From: Candidatus Methanoperedens nitratireducens
GTDB lineage: Archaea > Halobacteriota > Methanosarcinia > Methanosarcinales > Methanoperedenaceae
Direction: 5' to 3'
DNA: 64,000 nucleotides
Assembly: GCF_000685155.1 (NCBI RefSeq)
Contig: NZ_JMIY01000002.1
Coordinates: 310,774-374,773 of the forward strand
A program made the translations under genes and the position numbers. This document shows, one piece after another, positions 2,204 through 61,867 of the stretch; positions within the stretch are counted from its first letter, which is position 1, and the number at the start of each line of letters is the position of its first letter. The notes under the pieces were generated by a model. That model did not search any database and was not told where the DNA came from. It worked only from the letters and a program-made list of their open reading frames with translations.

Positions 2204-2805
2204 AAACTTTTTCTGAAAATATCCGGAAAATCATGGGCTGGTGCCCGAATGCGGGTGCACTTACGATAAGAAAATCCGTGCAGTTCGATGACCTGGCCGT
2301 AAATGCGCCCGATAGTGGTGGAGAATTAACTCACATCACCGCAGGATGGTGGAACAAATATCACAACAGGATTCTATTTAACTCAGTTATTGCCACGCTG
2401 GGAGCAATCTACTTTTTCACTTTAAGTGGAAAAGATAACATGAACTTTTTCTTGGCTGGCTTGATAGCGGGAATTATCTCCAGTATAGTATTTGGAATAA
2501 CCGAATGGCGCAGGCTCAATAAAGCTGCAGCAGGAGAGTTCAGGGAACTGCAAATTACCAGACGAAAGAAGGTTATTAATTACATCATAATATTTGGATC
2601 AATAGCTGTAATTATCTTTGTAATTGTTTTTTTTCGGGTGAAAACTGGGATACGTATCAGCGGGTATTACGCCTTTATCTCAGGTTTATTCTTATTTGTC
2701 TGGACACAGTACCTTGAGGTGGTTTACTGGGAACGGAAAAACAGGAAGACCCTGATAGTGGAAAAAACATCTTTTTACGCAGTAGATACAGGTGGAAGAA
2801 AGTGA
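2200..2805 (+). CDS. DUF1673-like GWCP membrane protein 3
   Basis: A 201-residue paralogue, shorter than the other three. GWCP (13-16) is followed by NAGALTIRKS, much as in paralogue 4 (GWCPNAS...IKKS). About four hydrophobic segments follow, in two closely spaced pairs. The loop between the pairs lacks the strand-rich insert of paralogues 1 and 2, so two subtypes are present in this operon. It begins with an ATGA overlap, and its stop overlaps the GTG of a 36-residue membrane peptide. Function unknown. Confidence 0.72.
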   Translation: MKTFSENIRKIMGWCPNAGALTIRKSVQFDDLAVNAPDSGGELTHITAGWWNKYHNRILFNSVIATLGAIYFFTLSGKDNMNFFLAGLIAGIISSIVFGITEWRRLNKAAAGEFRELQITRRKKVINYIIIFGSIAVIIFVIVFFRVKTGIRISGYYAFISGLFLFVWTQYLEVVYWERKNRKTLIVEKTSFYAVDTGGRK

Positions 2806-2912
2806 TTCTAATCAAACAGCTAATGAAAGGATTAGCCGCCGGACTAATCGGCGGGTTGATAGGCTTTATTATATTTGTTATTATCTGGAATAGAGGAGAT
2901 GGCAGTAAATGA
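2802..2912 (+). CDS. 36-residue membrane peptide
   Basis: A very short frame starting with GTG inside the stop of the preceding gene (GTGA) and ending inside the start of the next one (ATGA). It encodes KQLMKGLAAGLIGGLIGF followed by a second hydrophobic run (IIFVIIW), that is, one glycine-rich membrane helix with a short polar tail. An internal ATG at 2823 is an alternative start. The coupling on both sides is the main evidence that it is real. It may be a small subunit or modulator of the GWCP proteins (inference). Confidence 0.6.
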   Translation: MILIKQLMKGLAAGLIGGLIGFIIFVIIWNRGDGSK

Positions 2913-3100
2913 ATCTGATTAAGCAGGGAATACTGATGGCAATAACAGCATTTATTTTTTCAATGCTTTTTAGCTACTTCATGGACGGGAACATTAATTG
3001 GATATTGTCTTTCGGGATTGTGAGCGGTTTTTTGTTAGGGACTTTATTGATGTATCTCTTGAAGAAGGAAGAAAGGCGACAAAGGGGCTCTGGTGATTGA
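2909..3100 (+). CDS. 63-residue two-helix membrane protein
   Basis: A small protein with two predicted membrane helices (about residues 8-25 and 31-50) and a strongly charged tail (KKEERRQRG). It starts with an ATGA overlap and its stop overlaps the GTG start of the fourth GWCP protein. No family is recognised. Its position in an unbroken chain of overlapping genes suggests it is made in step with the GWCP proteins and acts in the same membrane complex. Confidence 0.6.
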   Translation: MNLIKQGILMAITAFIFSMLFSYFMDGNINWILSFGIVSGFLLGTLLMYLLKKEERRQRGSGD

Positions 3101-27548: not shown

Positions 27549-27643
27549 GGGCTCGTAGCTCAGTCAGGCAGAGCACCGGGCTTTTATTCAAAGCGAATTG
27601 AGAAGAAACCCGATGGTCGAGGGTTCAAATCCCTCCGAGCCCG
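27549..27643 (+). tRNA. tRNA-Lys (UUU) with intron
   Basis: The acceptor stem GGGCTCG/CGAGCCC, D arm GCTC...GAGC and T arm GAGGG-TTCAAAT-CCCTC are clear. The anticodon loop reads C-TTTT-A, giving anticodon UUU. After A37 (27586) an intron of about 21 bases (27587-27607) interrupts the loop at the canonical 37/38 site. Exon two resumes with A-CCCGA. The outermost anticodon-stem pair is C-A, a mismatch. The rpoH gene begins 22 bases after it. Confidence 0.82.
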
Positions 27644-27665
27644 CTTTACCTGTGAGGTAAATTAA

Positions 27666-55608: not shown

Positions 55609-56358
55609 ATGAGAGTAATTGCAATAACAGGCAAAGGCGGAACAGGCAAGACCGCAGTAGCAGGGATGCTGATTAAGCACCTAACATCGGGAAAAAAGAC
55701 GCTCCTTGCTATCGATTCAGATCCTGATTCCAACCTGCCTGATGTGCTCGGCATCAAAATCGATAAGACCATAGGGGATATGCGGGAGTTCATGCTGCAG
55801 GAGCGTGACAGGATGCCTCCAGATACAAATAAGGAGAGGGTCCTGGAATCCAAAATCTATGAGGTTCTCACAGAAATGTCAAGGTACGACCTCCTGGTGA
55901 TGGGGCGGCCTGAAGGCTCTGGATGCTATTGCTTTGCTAATAACCTCCTGCGCGGGATAATGGACAGGGTGCTTAAAAACTACGACCTGACAATAATCGA
56001 TACCGCGGCAGGGCTTGAGCATCTATCGCGCAGGATAATCCGGGATGTGGATGAACTCCTGGTCGTTACCGACGGCTCACGCAGGGGTTTGCAGACAGCA
56101 GAGAGGATACGGGAGCTTGCTAAATCGCTCAACCTGAATATCAGGAAAATGCATGTGATCGCCAACAAGGTCACGCCTGAGAACCGCGCGCGCATAGAAG
56201 AGTACGCGAGGGAGTTGAGGATGGACCTTGTGGGCATTGTGCCTTTTGATGAGACGCTTGCCCGATTTGATCTTGAAGGCAGGCCGCTTACTGAATTACC
56301 TGAGGATTCGGCGGCGCTGCAGGGAGTCGGGGAGATCGCGAGGAGAATGGGGTTGTAG
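55609..56358 (+). CDS. cooC: CO dehydrogenase maturation ATPase CooC
   Basis: A 249-residue ParA/MinD-type ATPase that helps load nickel into CO dehydrogenase. It has a deviant Walker A in ITGKGGTGKTAVAGM, then IDSDPDSNLPDVLG, and the cysteine pair in GCYCFANNLLRG. I choose the ATG at 55609. The last codons (GEIARRMGL) occur again at 56928-56977 as GEIARRMGF, so the present end may have been made by an insertion. Confidence 0.94.
   Translation: MRVIAITGKGGTGKTAVAGMLIKHLTSGKKTLLAIDSDPDSNLPDVLGIKIDKTIGDMREFMLQERDRMPPDTNKERVLESKIYEVLTEMSRYDLLVMGRPEGSGCYCFANNLLRGIMDRVLKNYDLTIIDTAAGLEHLSRRIIRDVDELLVVTDGSRRGLQTAERIRELAKSLNLNIRKMHVIANKVTPENRARIEEYARELRMDLVGIVPFDETLARFDLEGRPLTELPEDSAALQGVGEIARRMGL
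56305..56354 (+). repeat. Direct repeat at the cooC 3' end, first copy
   Basis: The last 50 coding bases of cooC before GTAG match 56928-56977 at 47 of 50 positions without gaps. The second copy then continues with CACT, as does a third short match at 60952-60964. The two long copies flank the PIN/antitoxin pair. Confidence 0.85.
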
Positions 56359-56656
56359 AGGAAAACTTTTGCGCATAGAGTATTCTGTCCTCTCTGTTCA
56401 AAAGTGGCGCAAGGATTATCTTTGTTTCCAATACCTTATTTAATGCCTCTTTTCCGAATTTGGAGCCTGTTTCAAGATCAGGGGCATTTTGTATGGCAAT
56501 TATGAACAACTCATGCAAAGCATAAAATGATGTGATAGCTTTGATTTTCTCAGCGTTCACCAATTTAAACAATTTTGAAACATGCACATATCGCTCTTCT
56601 TCAAGAACCTGAGCAAGTGTGTAGACTAACAATACTGAAGTGTCAAGATAGTGCAT
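56356..56656 (-). pseudogene. PIN-domain toxin, truncated
   Basis: The frame starts MHYLDTSVLLVYTLAQVLEE, with the first PIN aspartate (Asp5) and a glutamate in ALHELF. Good sequence continues to REDRILYAQKF, near 56368. From there the frame runs antisense into the cooC end (to 56288) and no longer resembles PIN, so the last acidic residues and helix are missing. PIN toxins are RNases. It overlaps the antitoxin-like gene by 14 bases. Confidence 0.65.
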
Positions 56657-56825
56657 GCTTGCTTTCTTCCTGCTGTATCGCCTCTATCATTAGTTTAGAT
56701 ATAAACAATGCAACAGGAGCGACTCCCTGTGCTAACATGAGTTCATAGCTCTCTTTTTTACCTTTGTGAAGGATATTATCAAAATTTTTGTTTTCCAAAT
56801 ATCGGCTAAACTCTTTTAAAGGCAC
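56643..56825 (-). CDS. Antitoxin-like 60-residue protein
   Basis: A small protein, MPLKEFSRYLENKNFDNIL at its start, mostly helical, with no clear DNA-binding domain. AGGTGAT lies five bases before its GTG start. It overlaps the PIN gene start, the usual order of a toxin-antitoxin pair. It belongs to no antitoxin family I can name. Confidence 0.55.
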   Translation of the reverse strand: MPLKEFSRYLENKNFDNILHKGKKESYELMLAQGVAPVALFISKLMIEAIQQEESKHALS

Positions 56826-56927
56826 GTAATATCACCTGATCGACTAATTTAAACAATGCATCGAATATATAAAAAGGTGATGGAGATGTTTTACCTTCTC
56901 CGAGATGCCAGCACAGGAGAACCGTGC

Positions 56928-56981
56928 GATTCGGTGGCGCTGCATGGAGTCGGGGAGATTGCGAGGAGAATGGGGTTCACT
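56928..56981 (+). repeat. Direct repeat of the cooC 3' end, second copy
   Basis: Bases 56928-56977 repeat cooC 56305-56354 (47 of 50). The last 13 bases, AATGGGGTTCACT (56969-56981), occur again at 60952-60964 beyond the AT-rich island, so this point is the left end of that island. Confidence 0.8.
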
Positions 56982-57353
56982 TCCCAGCTAGGCCTTGTTT
57001 TTGATAAACGACAAGGTCTTCCGGTGCATTTATGGTAAGGCTAATTTCTTTATGTTCTGCATTTTAAGAAAATCTTTCTTCCCACCTCAACTATAGCCTT
57101 CACAGTTATTGGCGGAAGATTGAAACTTTACAGAAGTCGATAATAAAAGAATTCTTCTCTTCCTATACTCAGTAATTGTAAAACAAAAATGATAAAATCG
57201 CTATATAGAAGTTGATTAACTTCGTAAGACAGCATTATTGTCATTTACAAAGTTAATTAAGCTATGCATAGTGATTTATTGAATTTGACTTTTATAAGTA
57301 CTGATACTTCCTTCTGTTACATACCTATCTTGCATTTTGACCTCCACACCTCA

Positions 57354-57424
57354 AGTACTGTGTACTCTATGTGAAGAGGGTCAAATGAACCAAACCATAT
57401 TTCGCACTAAATAATTGTGCGAAA
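57354..57424. promoter_or_regulatory. Inverted repeats upstream of the metallopeptidase gene
   Basis: AGTAC-TGT-GTACT (57354-57366) and TTTCGCAC-9-GTGCGAAA (57400-57424) are perfect inverted repeats. The second lies about 70 bases before the ATG at 57492, just before an AT-rich, TATA-like stretch (ATAATATTTAATAATG). Both are candidate regulator sites. Confidence 0.45.
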
Positions 57425-57491
57425 AGTAGGATAATATTTAATAATGTGGAGTACTGGTATAAGTATATTAATAAAATGTGGTTGAATATGA

Positions 57492-59726
57492 ATGATGACC
57501 AAATATAACTCAGAGGATTATTTGATTGGTGAAAAACCATTTTTAGCGATTTTCTTACAAAGTAAATCTGGATATGAAGAGATAATAATCCAGGAGCTAA
57601 AAAATAAAATATTAAATTTGAATTTTAAATATTTAAAAATACTAAAATGTTTTGGTCACTTTGATATAGCCATTCTTTTTAATCTAGATAAATTAGATAT
57701 AAATTTAGTATCATTTGAGAGAATATGTCAACAGATATCTCAAATTGATTATATAACTGATTCTAATTATATAGTAGGTTATTCATGGGAAGAAAATATA
57801 GATTTTAAAGGAATGGATTTTTGTTGGGGGGTTAGCTCTATAAAATTAGCTTTAAATGATTATACCATTAACCCTATTAAAACTGAGAAAGAAGTTATTA
57901 AAAAAATAATAGAGATTTCAAATAAAACTGACATTAAAATTAAAGTTTTTGGAGGTTTAGGTTGGAATGAAATAATTCTAATAATAAATTCACCCTCACT
58001 GAAGGAGATATCTAAATTTGTATATGCTATACGAATATTCGATGAGATCTTGGATATATCCACAATTCCTGCGATCATATGGGGTTGTTGGAATACTAAA
58101 AAATTAGAAATGGTTCCTAATTGTCAAATATTAATAACTCATCGCTCAAGAATTGATTATCCTATAAGAGAATTACTACTTTTACTAGCTGATGAACATA
58201 AGATTAATATATACAAAAATCATCAAGAAGATATTGGGTTGATTTTTGGTGGATTTGATATTCGATTGCCAATTGTTAATTCTGAATTAAATAATATTGT
58301 AAAATTTGTTTTAGAGGTTCGAAAAATAACAACTATTACTAAAACGAATACAATTTTTTCACCAATGCAAATTCCTCCAGCAAATACCAACCTATCACAA
58401 ATAAATATTTCAGATTATTCGGTAGATTTAAAAACCATAAATGTTAATCGCAATAATAAGAATATTGAAATCCCAACGTGTGATGAATTAATATGTATTC
58501 TAGAAAATGAGATTAGACACTTGCATAATGAGTATCTAGAATTAAAAAATGATTTTTATACCAAATCACTTTATTCTAACTTAGAGAGTTTATTTGAAAA
58601 TTTAGGTAGTAATATTAATAGAGTAAAAGAACTTAATTTTGAAATTAATTATAATGCATCAAAAATTTTTGATCAAAAAAGAAGACGAGTTATTTTATTG
58701 GAGCAACTAAAAAAAGTAATCCAAAGTCTAGAATTTTCAATATACCAACGTATTTCTGGAATGCAAATGAGTTACTTAATGGAATCTAAACACACTGGAT
58801 TTGAAAAATTTGGGGGAATTCAAAGAATTATTTTAGCAATTGAGGCAATCCCTAGAGAAATTATTAATAGAACCTCGCAGAAAAACTGGAGTGGGTTTTG
58901 TGTTTTTGGTTCAGAACCTGATTTTATCTGCCAAAATATTGGGGAGGTTATCTCAATACCTTTTGAATATAAATATATGCCTGAAAAATGGTGGGGTTTA
59001 GGTCATGAAATAGGTCATATCTTAATAAATAGATACCGAGATCAGATAGTTACACCTTATAAAAAAATAGTAAGAGATAATTTTGATAATGATATCGAAA
59101 AATTTCAAGATAATCTTAAAAGAACGAATGCTTATGATGAAGAGCTATTTGATGAGTACAAAAATAGAGAATTTGAATTGATTAATGAAAACATTGAAGA
59201 AATGTGCGCTGATTATTTGAATTTTAAAATAGTCTTTTTCTCAGATTGGAAATCCTTTTTAAATTGTACGCTTAATTATTTAGATAGTCGAGGATATGAT
59301 ATTTTATCTGAGACTAGATTGTTTAGGGTTATTTCTATAAGTGAGCATATCAATAAGGGTAGTGTTGAAAAAGATAGAGAATTATTTACAACTATTAAAA
59401 AAATTCGTAATTTCAGTAAATATGATGAGATACATTTTAAGGACAGAATTAATATAATAAGAAACCAAACCTTCTATCCGTATTTTAAAATTGTTGAAAG
59501 AATCTTAAATAATATTGATGCCATACTAAATATTGATATGAATGCTGACAATTTAAAAGCGATCGATACTAAATTAAACAAAGGGGAAATAATAGAAAGT
59601 AACACTGATTCAAATACAATTTATATTTTAAAATCTTTAATCAACAGAGATTTAAAAAATGATATTAATTTTAGATATCAAATAACTTCCATATTATCTC
59701 TTTATAACTCTCAATTCTCAAAGTGA
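57492..59726 (+). CDS. Large HEIGH metallopeptidase with sensor-like repeats
   Basis: A 744-residue cytosolic protein, not recognised as a whole. The zinc site HEIGH (505-509, in KWWGLGHEIGHILINRYR) and a probable third ligand in NIEEMCADYLNF (567-578) mark a gluzincin-type peptidase of IrrE/ImmA-like layout. The N-terminal 290 residues look like three tandem alpha/beta repeats resembling the AsnC/RAM ligand fold (GHFDIAILF, GLGWNEIILII, GGFDIRLPIV). Residues about 330-420 form a probable coiled coil. Codons are far richer in A and T than the neighbours, a sign of transfer. No signal peptide or membrane helix. Confidence 0.7.
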   Translation: MMTKYNSEDYLIGEKPFLAIFLQSKSGYEEIIIQELKNKILNLNFKYLKILKCFGHFDIAILFNLDKLDINLVSFERICQQISQIDYITDSNYIVGYSWEENIDFKGMDFCWGVSSIKLALNDYTINPIKTEKEVIKKIIEISNKTDIKIKVFGGLGWNEIILIINSPSLKEISKFVYAIRIFDEILDISTIPAIIWGCWNTKKLEMVPNCQILITHRSRIDYPIRELLLLLADEHKINIYKNHQEDIGLIFGGFDIRLPIVNSELNNIVKFVLEVRKITTITKTNTIFSPMQIPPANTNLSQINISDYSVDLKTINVNRNNKNIEIPTCDELICILENEIRHLHNEYLELKNDFYTKSLYSNLESLFENLGSNINRVKELNFEINYNASKIFDQKRRRVILLEQLKKVIQSLEFSIYQRISGMQMSYLMESKHTGFEKFGGIQRIILAIEAIPREIINRTSQKNWSGFCVFGSEPDFICQNIGEVISIPFEYKYMPEKWWGLGHEIGHILINRYRDQIVTPYKKIVRDNFDNDIEKFQDNLKRTNAYDEELFDEYKNREFELINENIEEMCADYLNFKIVFFSDWKSFLNCTLNYLDSRGYDILSETRLFRVISISEHINKGSVEKDRELFTTIKKIRNFSKYDEIHFKDRINIIRNQTFYPYFKIVERILNNIDAILNIDMNADNLKAIDTKLNKGEIIESNTDSNTIYILKSLINRDLKNDINFRYQITSILSLYNSQFSK

Positions 59727-60008
59727 TTAATCTCTTCTTAATATTGAGTTCACTCTAATGAGATCATATCTCGTTAATGATTTACTTTTTGATTCCTTAA
59801 AAGTAGTTCGACCACCATCTAAGGGCAATGAAGTTTTACCAAAGCGAGTTCTAGCAGAATCATTGAAATATCTTGAAGATTTTTTGTATTCAGAGATAGA
59901 GTATGATTTTGATACATATTTAATATCATTAACAAAAATTTTAATAACCTGTAGTATAATATATAATACTATTATAAATGCTACAACAAATGGTAAACTC
60001 TCAAACAC
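59727..60008 (-). CDS. 93-residue membrane protein, possible
   Basis: A leftward frame starting with GTG. It has one N-terminal helix (LPFVVAFIIVLYIILQVIKI) and a basic tail (RTRFGKTSLPLDGGRTTF). It lies downstream of the 207-residue membrane protein gene on the same strand. A frame on the other strand (59758-60069) is equally long, and base usage does not decide between them. I prefer this one because of its clear membrane helix and tail. Confidence 0.4.
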   Translation of the reverse strand: MFESLPFVVAFIIVLYIILQVIKIFVNDIKYVSKSYSISEYKKSSRYFNDSARTRFGKTSLPLDGGRTTFKESKSKSLTRYDLIRVNSILRRD

Positions 60009-60115
60009 ACATATATTTAATTTACTTATAGTATTTAAATGTATCGAAAAAGCTCATTACTCTAGATAGAGCTAAAATTATAATTGATTAATTTAGGTCA
60101 TATACATATTGTAAT

Positions 60116-60739
60116 CTATTTATGGTATTTAAATCTATCGAGAGTTTTCATTAGAATACATATTATTTTTGTGAATATACGTTGTCGAACATACCTCAAG
60201 TTTTGATTACTTAAATAACCAAGCGAATTTATTTTCAATTTTTTGAGTCTATTTCGGTACTTGTTGGATATGCTTTCGAACTTAGTAGAGATATAACATT
60301 TAAATCGTAGCGATTTATTATATAAATTCGATAAATCATCACATGTATATCTGCAAAACTCGATTATTGATTCCCTTAAAGATAGAAAAAAACTAACTAA
60401 GACTAAAAGAAGCCCGCTTGTTGAATATAATGTAACTGTCTGATTATAGGAAAGAGAAATTGGATTAAATATGCCTACATAAATTAAAATTGATACATTC
60501 ACCATTAACCAAATACCTAAGCACCCTATTGAACTGTGAATTATTTTTACGTCTCTATTGTTTGTAGAAGCACCATTTTTTAATTTTGCACTTAAAATAC
60601 TAACAGCTGTAACCGGTACTGCAAAGGTTATGACTAGTATTGATGAGAAATTATTACTTAATAAATCACCTAAGTTCAGATTTTGTGAGATATTATTCTT
60701 ATTTGATAAATTATTCAAAGCTATACTAGATATATCCAT
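60116..60739 (-). CDS. 207-residue four-helix-type membrane protein, unknown
   Basis: A protein with three clear hydrophobic stretches (ILVITFAVPVTAVSIL, GIWLMVNVSILIYVGIF, GLLLVLVSFFLSL) and a basic, probably cytoplasmic C-terminal third (KYRNRLKKLKINSL). Very AT-rich, as the rest of the island. It ends LDRFKYHK; just downstream (60022-60057) a short remnant reads FDTFKYYK, a duplicated gene end. No family recognised. It may be the membrane partner of the metallopeptidase (inference). Confidence 0.6.
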   Translation of the reverse strand: MDISSIALNNLSNKNNISQNLNLGDLLSNNFSSILVITFAVPVTAVSILSAKLKNGASTNNRDVKIIHSSIGCLGIWLMVNVSILIYVGIFNPISLSYNQTVTLYSTSGLLLVLVSFFLSLRESIIEFCRYTCDDLSNLYNKSLRFKCYISTKFESISNKYRNRLKKLKINSLGYLSNQNLRYVRQRIFTKIICILMKTLDRFKYHK

Positions 60740-60759
60740 TATCGCTTAAATACTCCAAA

Positions 60760-60795
60760 TACTATAAATGATTACCGTTTACTATAAATGATTAC
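60760..60795. repeat. Two direct repeats before the membrane protein gene
   Basis: TACTATAAATGATTAC occurs twice (60760-60775, 60780-60795) with a 20-base period, just upstream of the leftward gene that starts at 60739. Read leftward each copy contains ATTTATAG, a TATA-like element, so the repeat is either a doubled promoter or a regulator site. Confidence 0.55.
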
Positions 60796-60951
60796 TATTC
60801 TATAATTTTATTTTTTATCACTCATCCCTCAATCTTACTTATCAAATTTCTAATTTCCACTTAAAGATTAATTATAGGAGTTGTAGCTTCATTAGTGCCA
60901 AGTATGCAACTTTATAAGTTTCATGCAGGTATGAATGGACGTATATTACAA

Positions 60952-60964
60952 AATGGGGTTCACT
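60952..60964 (+). repeat. Right-end copy of the 13-base island boundary
   Basis: AATGGGGTTCACT equals 56969-56981. Reading on in the frame of the cooC tail gives MGFTPARKYLRNDN..., a plausible protein end that stops at 61013. This could be the original end of a cooC-like gene, parted from its body by the island. The bases to the left do not resemble cooC. Confidence 0.6.
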
Positions 60965-61029
60965 CCAGCAAGGAAGTATTTAAGAAACGATAATCTTGAA
61001 CTAAGTAACGAATGAACAGGGAGGGAATT

Positions 61030-61453
61030 ATGTCTACAGAGGAGAATAAGGCAATAATACGCCGATTCTATGAGAAGTTTTTCAATAAAGGAAATCTAGC
61101 AATAATTGATGAGCTGTTCAGTCCCAACTATATTCACCATGTTCAAGATGTTCCGGGCTCAAAAGTCAACCTTGAGGGATACAAGAAACGAAACTCAACG
61201 TTCTTTAACGCATTCCCTGATCGGAGAGTAATTATCGATGATCCGGTTGCCGAAGCTGATAGAGGTTTCTCGTTCGATGATTCATGGCAAACAAATCGGG
61301 AATATACCAGCAACAAACAGGCAAGTGACAGTAATGGCAATAATCATTCATCGTATCGTCGATGGTAAGGTTACGGAGGGATGGGAGTGCTACGACCAGC
61401 ATGGTATGCTTAAGCAGTTGGGCGTTGTTCGTCCTCCAGAGCAACAAGAGTAA
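61030..61453 (+). pseudogene. SnoaL-like/ester cyclase protein with a frameshift
   Basis: MSTEENKAIIRRFYEKFFNK...NYIHHVQDVPG is the start of a SnoaL-like polyketide-cyclase fold. The frame then breaks near 61263, after VAEADR. Removing one G from AGAGGTTTC restores SRSMIHGKQIGNIPATNRQ and the natural end (VDGKVTEGWECYDQHGMLK). A single inserted base, real or a sequencing error, explains everything. GGGAGG lies before the ATG at 61030. Confidence 0.8.
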
Positions 61454-61468
61454 CCTTCAAATGCGTTT

Positions 61469-61867
61469 TTATTTCACCACTTCATATCCAGCATCAGTCC
61501 AGCCAATAATTCCTCCCTTCATGTTATAAACCTCTTTAAATCCGTTATTGACCAGTATCTCACTTGCCTGGACACTTCGGTGCCCTGTTCTGCAATATAC
61601 CAGTATTTTCTTATCCTTCGGTATCTCATCAAGCCTTTTATCAATCACTTGAACAGGGATTAGTGTTGAATCCTCTATATGTCCGGCATCATATTCTTCC
61701 TGGGTACGTACATCCAGAATAAAAATCTCACCGCGATCTATCATTTCTTTGGCCTGCTGAACAGTGATATCTACATATTTTGGGTTTCCCTGGATGGTAC
61801 TTATGCATCCGGACACTGTAGCTAACAGTAAGAATATTAAAGCTATGATAAAATATGTCTTTCTCAT
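61469..61867 (-). CDS. Rhodanese-domain lipoprotein
   Basis: A 132-residue surface protein. The lipobox VSGC (Cys21) is followed by a rhodanese domain with the active-site loop CRTGHRS (Cys92) and the end EVYNMKGGIIGWTDAGYEV. It would transfer sulfane sulfur outside the membrane or bind such compounds. It stands alone, facing the SnoaL pseudogene. Confidence 0.9.
   Translation of the reverse strand: MRKTYFIIALIFLLLATVSGCISTIQGNPKYVDITVQQAKEMIDRGEIFILDVRTQEEYDAGHIEDSTLIPVQVIDKRLDEIPKDKKILVYCRTGHRSVQASEILVNNGFKEVYNMKGGIIGWTDAGYEVVK

Follow-up and report, generated by a model that had tools for sequence, protein, structure and literature searches.

Tandem RAM-like repeats fronting a putative zinc peptidase beside small membrane-protein genes in a variable islet of Candidatus Methanoperedens nitratireducens

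Introduction

The RAM domain is the amino-acid-sensing part of the Lrp/AsnC transcription regulators. In archaea, its ligands are amino acids or related metabolites, and the domain changes its oligomeric state; what RAM proteins do when they stand alone in archaea has been called unclear (PMC2995911). The gene described here was found in a 64,000-nucleotide stretch of the Candidatus Methanoperedens nitratireducens genome (hereafter the window) and encodes a protein with three repeats that score with a RAM (PF01037) profile, as do Lrp/AsnC proteins and stand-alone archaeal forms such as DM1 (PMC2995911). It differs from these in that three diverged copies stand in tandem in front of a putative peptidase and are too remote for a direct Pfam match. 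No HTH DNA-binding domain of the kind present in Lrp/AsnC regulators was detected in the 744-residue protein by Pfam and NCBIfam scans.

For the C-terminal half, the closest described systems are peptidases with an HExxH motif, an example of which in a mobile element is ImmA/ImmR of ICEBs1 (PMC8960796). Our protein resembles ImmA/IrrE (M78, PF06114) by its HExGH-type motif and its accessory-genome setting, but has no Pfam match and no partner repressor. We know of no M78 system with a RAM front or with membrane partners. Gluzincins with an ExxAD-type ligand, such as M48 (PF01435), also present an HExxH followed by an ExxAD, both on helices; here, however, the two motifs are separated by 65 to 86 residues, the likeness by profile is confined to the motif and the model is largely helical.

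In bacterial gasdermin-type systems, the protease is under control and its gene adjoins one whose product acts on membranes. The comparison with such sensor-protease-effector conflict systems (reviewed in PMC9612521) concerns only the way they work, a controlled protease (here putative) beside a membrane-protein gene; no part is homologous, and the protease class, the sensor and the membrane proteins are all different.

The gene and its architecture

The frame is uninterrupted from the ATG at 57492 to the stop codon ending at 59726 and encodes 744 residues, exactly as a preceding sequence-only reading had placed it; its features are collected in Table 1. No transmembrane segment was found by hydropathy in the protein. 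Helices are predicted at residues 330-352, 364-380 and 389-421 of a low-confidence model, which fits the coiled coil noted in that reading. The same reading had considered the domain combination unfamiliar, and this impression held: the protein gave no significant match in any of the five libraries searched (Pfam, NCBIfam, PADLOC, PHROGs and PDB sequences), no characterised peptidase family was matched, the repeats were recovered, and no description of a RAM and peptidase combination was found in the open-access literature.

Comparison with the closest homologue, in genome G068 (64% identical), gave dN/dS values of about 0.11 for residues 1-122 and 0.19 for residues 171-744, both rough because dS is high; judged by these ratios, sensor and peptidase are under strong purifying selection.

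Table 1. Features of the locus, with coordinates in the window. TM, transmembrane segment; z, score above shuffles in pairwise alignment to the stand-alone RAM protein of genome G100.
Feature	Coordinates	Strand	Basis
RAM x3 - HExxH metallopeptidase gene (putative), 744 aa	57492..59726	+	ORF; 64% identical homologue in L001/G068; dN/dS ~0.19 over residues 171-744
RAM-like repeat 1, residues ~17-97	57540..57782	+	RAM HMM 20-68; z 6.0; beta-alpha-beta-beta-alpha-beta in model
RAM-like repeat 2, residues ~112-191	57825..58064	+	RAM HMM 152-182; z 4.7
RAM-like repeat 3, residues ~209-291	58116..58364	+	RAM HMM 246-289, 19.2 bits; z 5.6
Helical, coiled-coil-like linker, residues 330-421	58479..58754	+	secondary structure of low-confidence model
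Putative zinc-peptidase domain, residues 402-744	58695..59723	+	invariant columns in four relatives; motif positions and spacing
FGGIQ, residues 440-444; VFG, residues 471-473		+	conserved in peptidase domain
HEIGH, residues 505-509	59004-59018	+	motif position
EMCAD, residues 570-574	59199-59213	+	motif position
93-aa partner: one N-terminal TM, conserved basic tail FKExKSKSLxRYDxIRxNSILRR	59727..60008	-	43% identical to L001:7876-8160; TM by hydropathy
207-aa partner, ~three TM	60116..60739	-	43% identical to L001:7317-7844; homologue in G067; TM by hydropathy
Variable ~5.1 kb stretch	56365..61472	.	missing from closest relative found, G042 (cooC, vapC scrap, rhodanese)

The N-terminal repeats

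Because a direct Pfam scan of the 744-residue protein did not detect RAM, we built a RAM HMM from genomes of the same order, with 31 sequences (30 segments assigned to PF01037 and the stand-alone RAM protein of G100, itself recognised as PF01037 by Pfam with an E-value of 6.6e-12). Residues 1-330 scored 30.1 bits with this HMM (E 1.8e-8 for 1000 sequences) through three sites, a score reached by none of 300 shuffles, the best of which gave 6.9 bits; the C-terminal half gave no match. The bulk of the signal comes from repeat 3; repeats 1 and 2 alone (3.5 and 6.8 bits) are not individually significant, and in pairwise alignment to the G100 protein all three stood above shuffles. The three AsnC/RAM-like repeats proposed from the sequence are thus recovered by the profile search, which matches around the G-x-(F/Y/H)-D motif of RAM, and the RAM assignment is established as far as sequence likeness goes.

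At the level of the fold, the assignment is plausible. The full-length AlphaFold model is weak (mean pLDDT 45), and its top PDB matches by Foldseek include several Lrp/AsnC proteins (probability 1.00, E 0.04-0.1). The beta-alpha-beta-beta-alpha-beta order is clear in repeat 1 and partial in repeats 2 and 3 of this low-confidence model. At the back, the expected gluzincin fold was not demonstrated (see below).

The G068 homologue scored 5.3 bits with the same HMM; a frame change divides this gene, so that the piece tested lacks its third repeat. It also carries about 94 additional residues between repeats 1 and 2 (L001 8700-8974) which are absent from the window protein. Weak RAM matches were also seen in two very long open frames of related genomes, G058:C189:1225-1386 (945 aa) and G051:C73:17158-17259 (930 aa), possibly other multi-domain RAM proteins.

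The putative zinc-peptidase domain

The HEIGH site and the later EExxAD-type motif described in the sequence-only reading are both present, the latter correctly so named since an additional E directly precedes EMCAD. From the composition of the protein, an HExxH would be expected 0.013 times in 744 residues; it is invariant in four relatives whose identity goes down to 16-20%. The alignment across these fused and split types, described below, retains 29 invariant columns, including FGGIQ, A-x-EA, VFG, a P and LxHExxH. An ExxAD or ExxSD motif, the candidate third zinc ligand, follows the HExxH in all four proteins, at 65, 65, 71 and 86 residues, but automatic alignments scatter it over different columns; the longest spacing, in genome G025, contains a short tandem expansion.

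The model of this domain is fairly confident, with a pLDDT of about 66-81, only over residues ~522-681. A gluzincin fold is not demonstrated, since this partial-quality model is helical apart from a short beta hairpin, and a Foldseek search with the domain gave no fold match, only helical-bundle noise. Two families were tried and rejected: Peptidase_M48 (PF01435) aligned by hhalign with a probability of 4% over 13 columns comprising the HExxH motif only, and Peptidase_M78/ImmA-IrrE (PF06114), for which the profile was compared with one M78 protein, reached a probability of 0.7%, again on the motif only; neither had a Pfam match.

Could the HExxH then be retained for some other reason, in a non-catalytic or non-peptidase zincin-like enzyme for which the RAM repeats would serve as an assembly platform? 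The domain matches no peptidase fold and its third ligand is unaligned, as this explanation would have it. We consider it improbable: in relatives as diverged as these four, no more than 29 columns are invariant, and the H, E and H belong to them, followed at similar distances by an acidic ExxAD-type motif.

Fused and split relatives

Relatives of the peptidase were found in G068, which belongs to the same genus as the host, and in G069 and G025, that is in 4 genomes including that of the window. The genome searches, 1388 when repeats are counted, were confined to a single archaeal phylum and were dense in one order and class; a broad collection of species had one scan with one query sequence, an approach that detects close relatives only. 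With this coverage, the rarity of the family may be overstated. In plasmids and phages, tblastn found nothing with either the window-type or the split-type peptidase, and nothing came from IMG/VR scans with the protein, the profile, the split peptidase, the sensor and the zinc-ribbon protein. Weak matches in contigs C42 and C125 of G025 were set aside as an IS-type transposase ORF.

Two architectures exist. The protein is fused in the window and in G068, as required by the putative "one-protein switch" proposed from the sequence, but the two halves are separate adjacent genes in G069 and G025, so that this proposal is half right. In G069, a sensor (35-901), a peptidase (867-2495) and a zinc-ribbon protein with four TM segments (2511-3089) are encoded by consecutive genes. 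The same order is found in G025 on two contig ends, the sensor and the start of the peptidase on C92, the remaining peptidase and the zinc-ribbon gene on C156, and we infer that these ends belong to one interrupted locus. Compared by hhalign, the profile of the split sensor and the window protein are collinear over residues 33-290 of the latter (E 0.007); the same profile matches a genuine PF01037 protein (E 2.5e-4).

The copies outside the window appear damaged. The G068 gene shifts frame inside an A-run, although an assembly error could explain this. In G025, the peptidase frame continues into unrelated sequence close to the contig end. The G069 sensor starts inside a 124-nt sequence (L012 1-127) identical to that at three other contig ends of this genome, with similar copies in G055 and G054; the sensor gene is probably interrupted here by an insertion element, of which this would be the end.

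Membrane partners

The membrane pair lies downstream of and convergent with the peptidase gene in the window, but upstream and co-directional in G068, where its counterparts have 175 residues (about three TM segments) and 94 residues (one TM segment and the basic tail). The pair is inverted relative to the peptidase and yet adjacent in both genomes, and the linkage has therefore survived an inversion. Of 31 genomes of the genus, none but G000, G068 and G067 gave the 207-residue protein; the G067 gene sits at the edge of a contig, with its neighbour out of view. Strong matches to the zinc-ribbon protein were limited to two of 186 genomes of the order, both carrying the split form; one weak match, in G101, is a zinc-ribbon membrane ORF adjoined by no peptidase and was rejected. 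A profile comparison of the fused-form and split-form partners revealed no relation between them. The co-occurrence that the sequence-only reading had proposed to check is thus observed, with the pair kept beside the fused form in the window and in G068 and an unrelated membrane protein beside the split form, although it rests on few events as four peptidase loci are known. The dN/dS of the pair between the window and G068 is 0.5-0.6 (rough values, dS being high).

Genomic setting

The trio has a GC content of 26.5%, against 42.5% for the window, and the other islets are AT-rich too (25.6-40% against 44-53% around them). Their neighbours vary: cooC and a rhodanese gene in the window, different genes in G068, G069 and G067. 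In the sister genome G042, whose flanks are about 92% identical, cooC and the rhodanese gene are only a few dozen bases apart, so that window positions 56365-61472 are absent there. Between them remain 34 nt (L051 2508-2541) that derive from the vapC-like gene of the window, and at least part of the stretch was therefore once present, suggesting from this trace a deletion in G042; for the 5.1-kb difference as a whole, a gain in the window and a loss in G042 cannot be told apart. In the window, a 50-nt piece of the 3' end of cooC (56305-56354) is duplicated (94%) at 56928-56977, across a PIN (vapC-like) gene and the gene paired with it, which would fit an arrival of this pair with a partial target duplication.

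The description of the locus as a mobile-looking island is borne out only by its composition and its presence or absence; in the window stretch we saw neither an integrase nor a transposase nor any other gene for mobility. PADLOC (2023 library), searched with the peptidase and the 207-residue protein, gave no match, and no recognised defence system lies beside the 744-residue gene. Two further elements of the window were recorded: a candidate SnoaL/ester-cyclase-like gene at 61012-61453, apparently split over two frames (61012-61368 and 61238-61453), and a 96-nt tRNA-Asn with anticodon ATT called by ARAGORN at 27549-27644. Both its length and its anticodon are unusual in archaea, so this could be an erroneous call or an intron-containing gene.

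Discussion

At this locus, RAM repeats stand ahead of a conserved motif, the homologues occur in split form, membrane genes are linked to the peptidase and the islet is variable. With RAM repeats, a peptidase family that is not recognised and adjoining genes for small membrane proteins, the locus has the look of a protease module switched by a ligand, perhaps a defensive one, of a kind not described so far. As a tentative reading, held with less than even confidence, we propose an accessory module in which a RAM-regulated metallopeptidase acts on a membrane partner, perhaps in defence. The three RAM domains would bind a small ligand or oligomerise as in Lrp/AsnC; through the helical linker, they would switch a soluble HExxH...ExxAD zinc peptidase, for which the small membrane proteins may be substrate, anchor or effector. 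On a signal, the peptidase would be freed from inhibition and cut the membrane partner, and the membrane would be changed. What we infer is that zinc is bound and protein cleaved, that a ligand gates the activity, that the membrane protein is the target and that the module takes part in conflict or defence. The patchiness, the islets and the breakage of copies favour an accessory, possibly conflict, role. A bolder version is doubtful: the locus would then represent an archaeal immune or conflict module of a new class. Its tandem RAM domains would respond to a metabolite or to a signal of infection by turning on the zinc peptidase, itself of a new family, and this would activate the adjacent membrane protein; fused and split forms would exist, with interchangeable membrane effectors.

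Outside conflict, the protein could be a regulatory protease for nutrient or stress sensing, with RAM sensing an amino acid or metabolite, the peptidase trimming a host protein and the membrane proteins serving as anchor or transport-related partner. The ligands bound by archaeal RAM domains, amino acids and related metabolites (PMC2995911), would suit such a role, as would the strong purifying selection on sensor and peptidase; a peptidase present in only 4 genomes, in AT-rich islets with varied neighbours and damaged copies, is nevertheless unlike core physiology, and we regard this explanation as unlikely. Quite unlikely is a toxin-antitoxin-like pair, in which the small membrane proteins would be toxins degraded by the RAM-peptidase until a signal stops it. 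It would account for the faster evolution of the small membrane proteins with the basic tail (dN/dS 0.5-0.6) and for their adjoining the peptidase in two kinds of locus, but the peptidase is far larger than usual antitoxins and the membrane proteins match no toxin family.

Among the remaining explanations, an ImmA/IrrE-like peptidase cutting a repressor, and thereby controlling the islet or a resident element, is very improbable: HExxH peptidases of such kind are common in mobile elements, as with ImmA/ImmR of ICEBs1 (PMC8960796), but we saw no gene for an HTH repressor among those of the islet and the M78 profile is unmatched. That the locus is a decaying, functionless AT-rich remnant is hardly credible: its relatives are damaged or interrupted, but in the window the frame stays open over all 744 codons, and its dN/dS against G068 is 0.11-0.19.

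Returning to the RAM-regulated metallopeptidase, what distinguishes this locus is that RAM domains here front a putative peptidase unrecognised by curated libraries, and that membrane partners recur beside it. A real switch of this kind would give RAM domains a post-translational output, in a compact module of methane-oxidising archaea.
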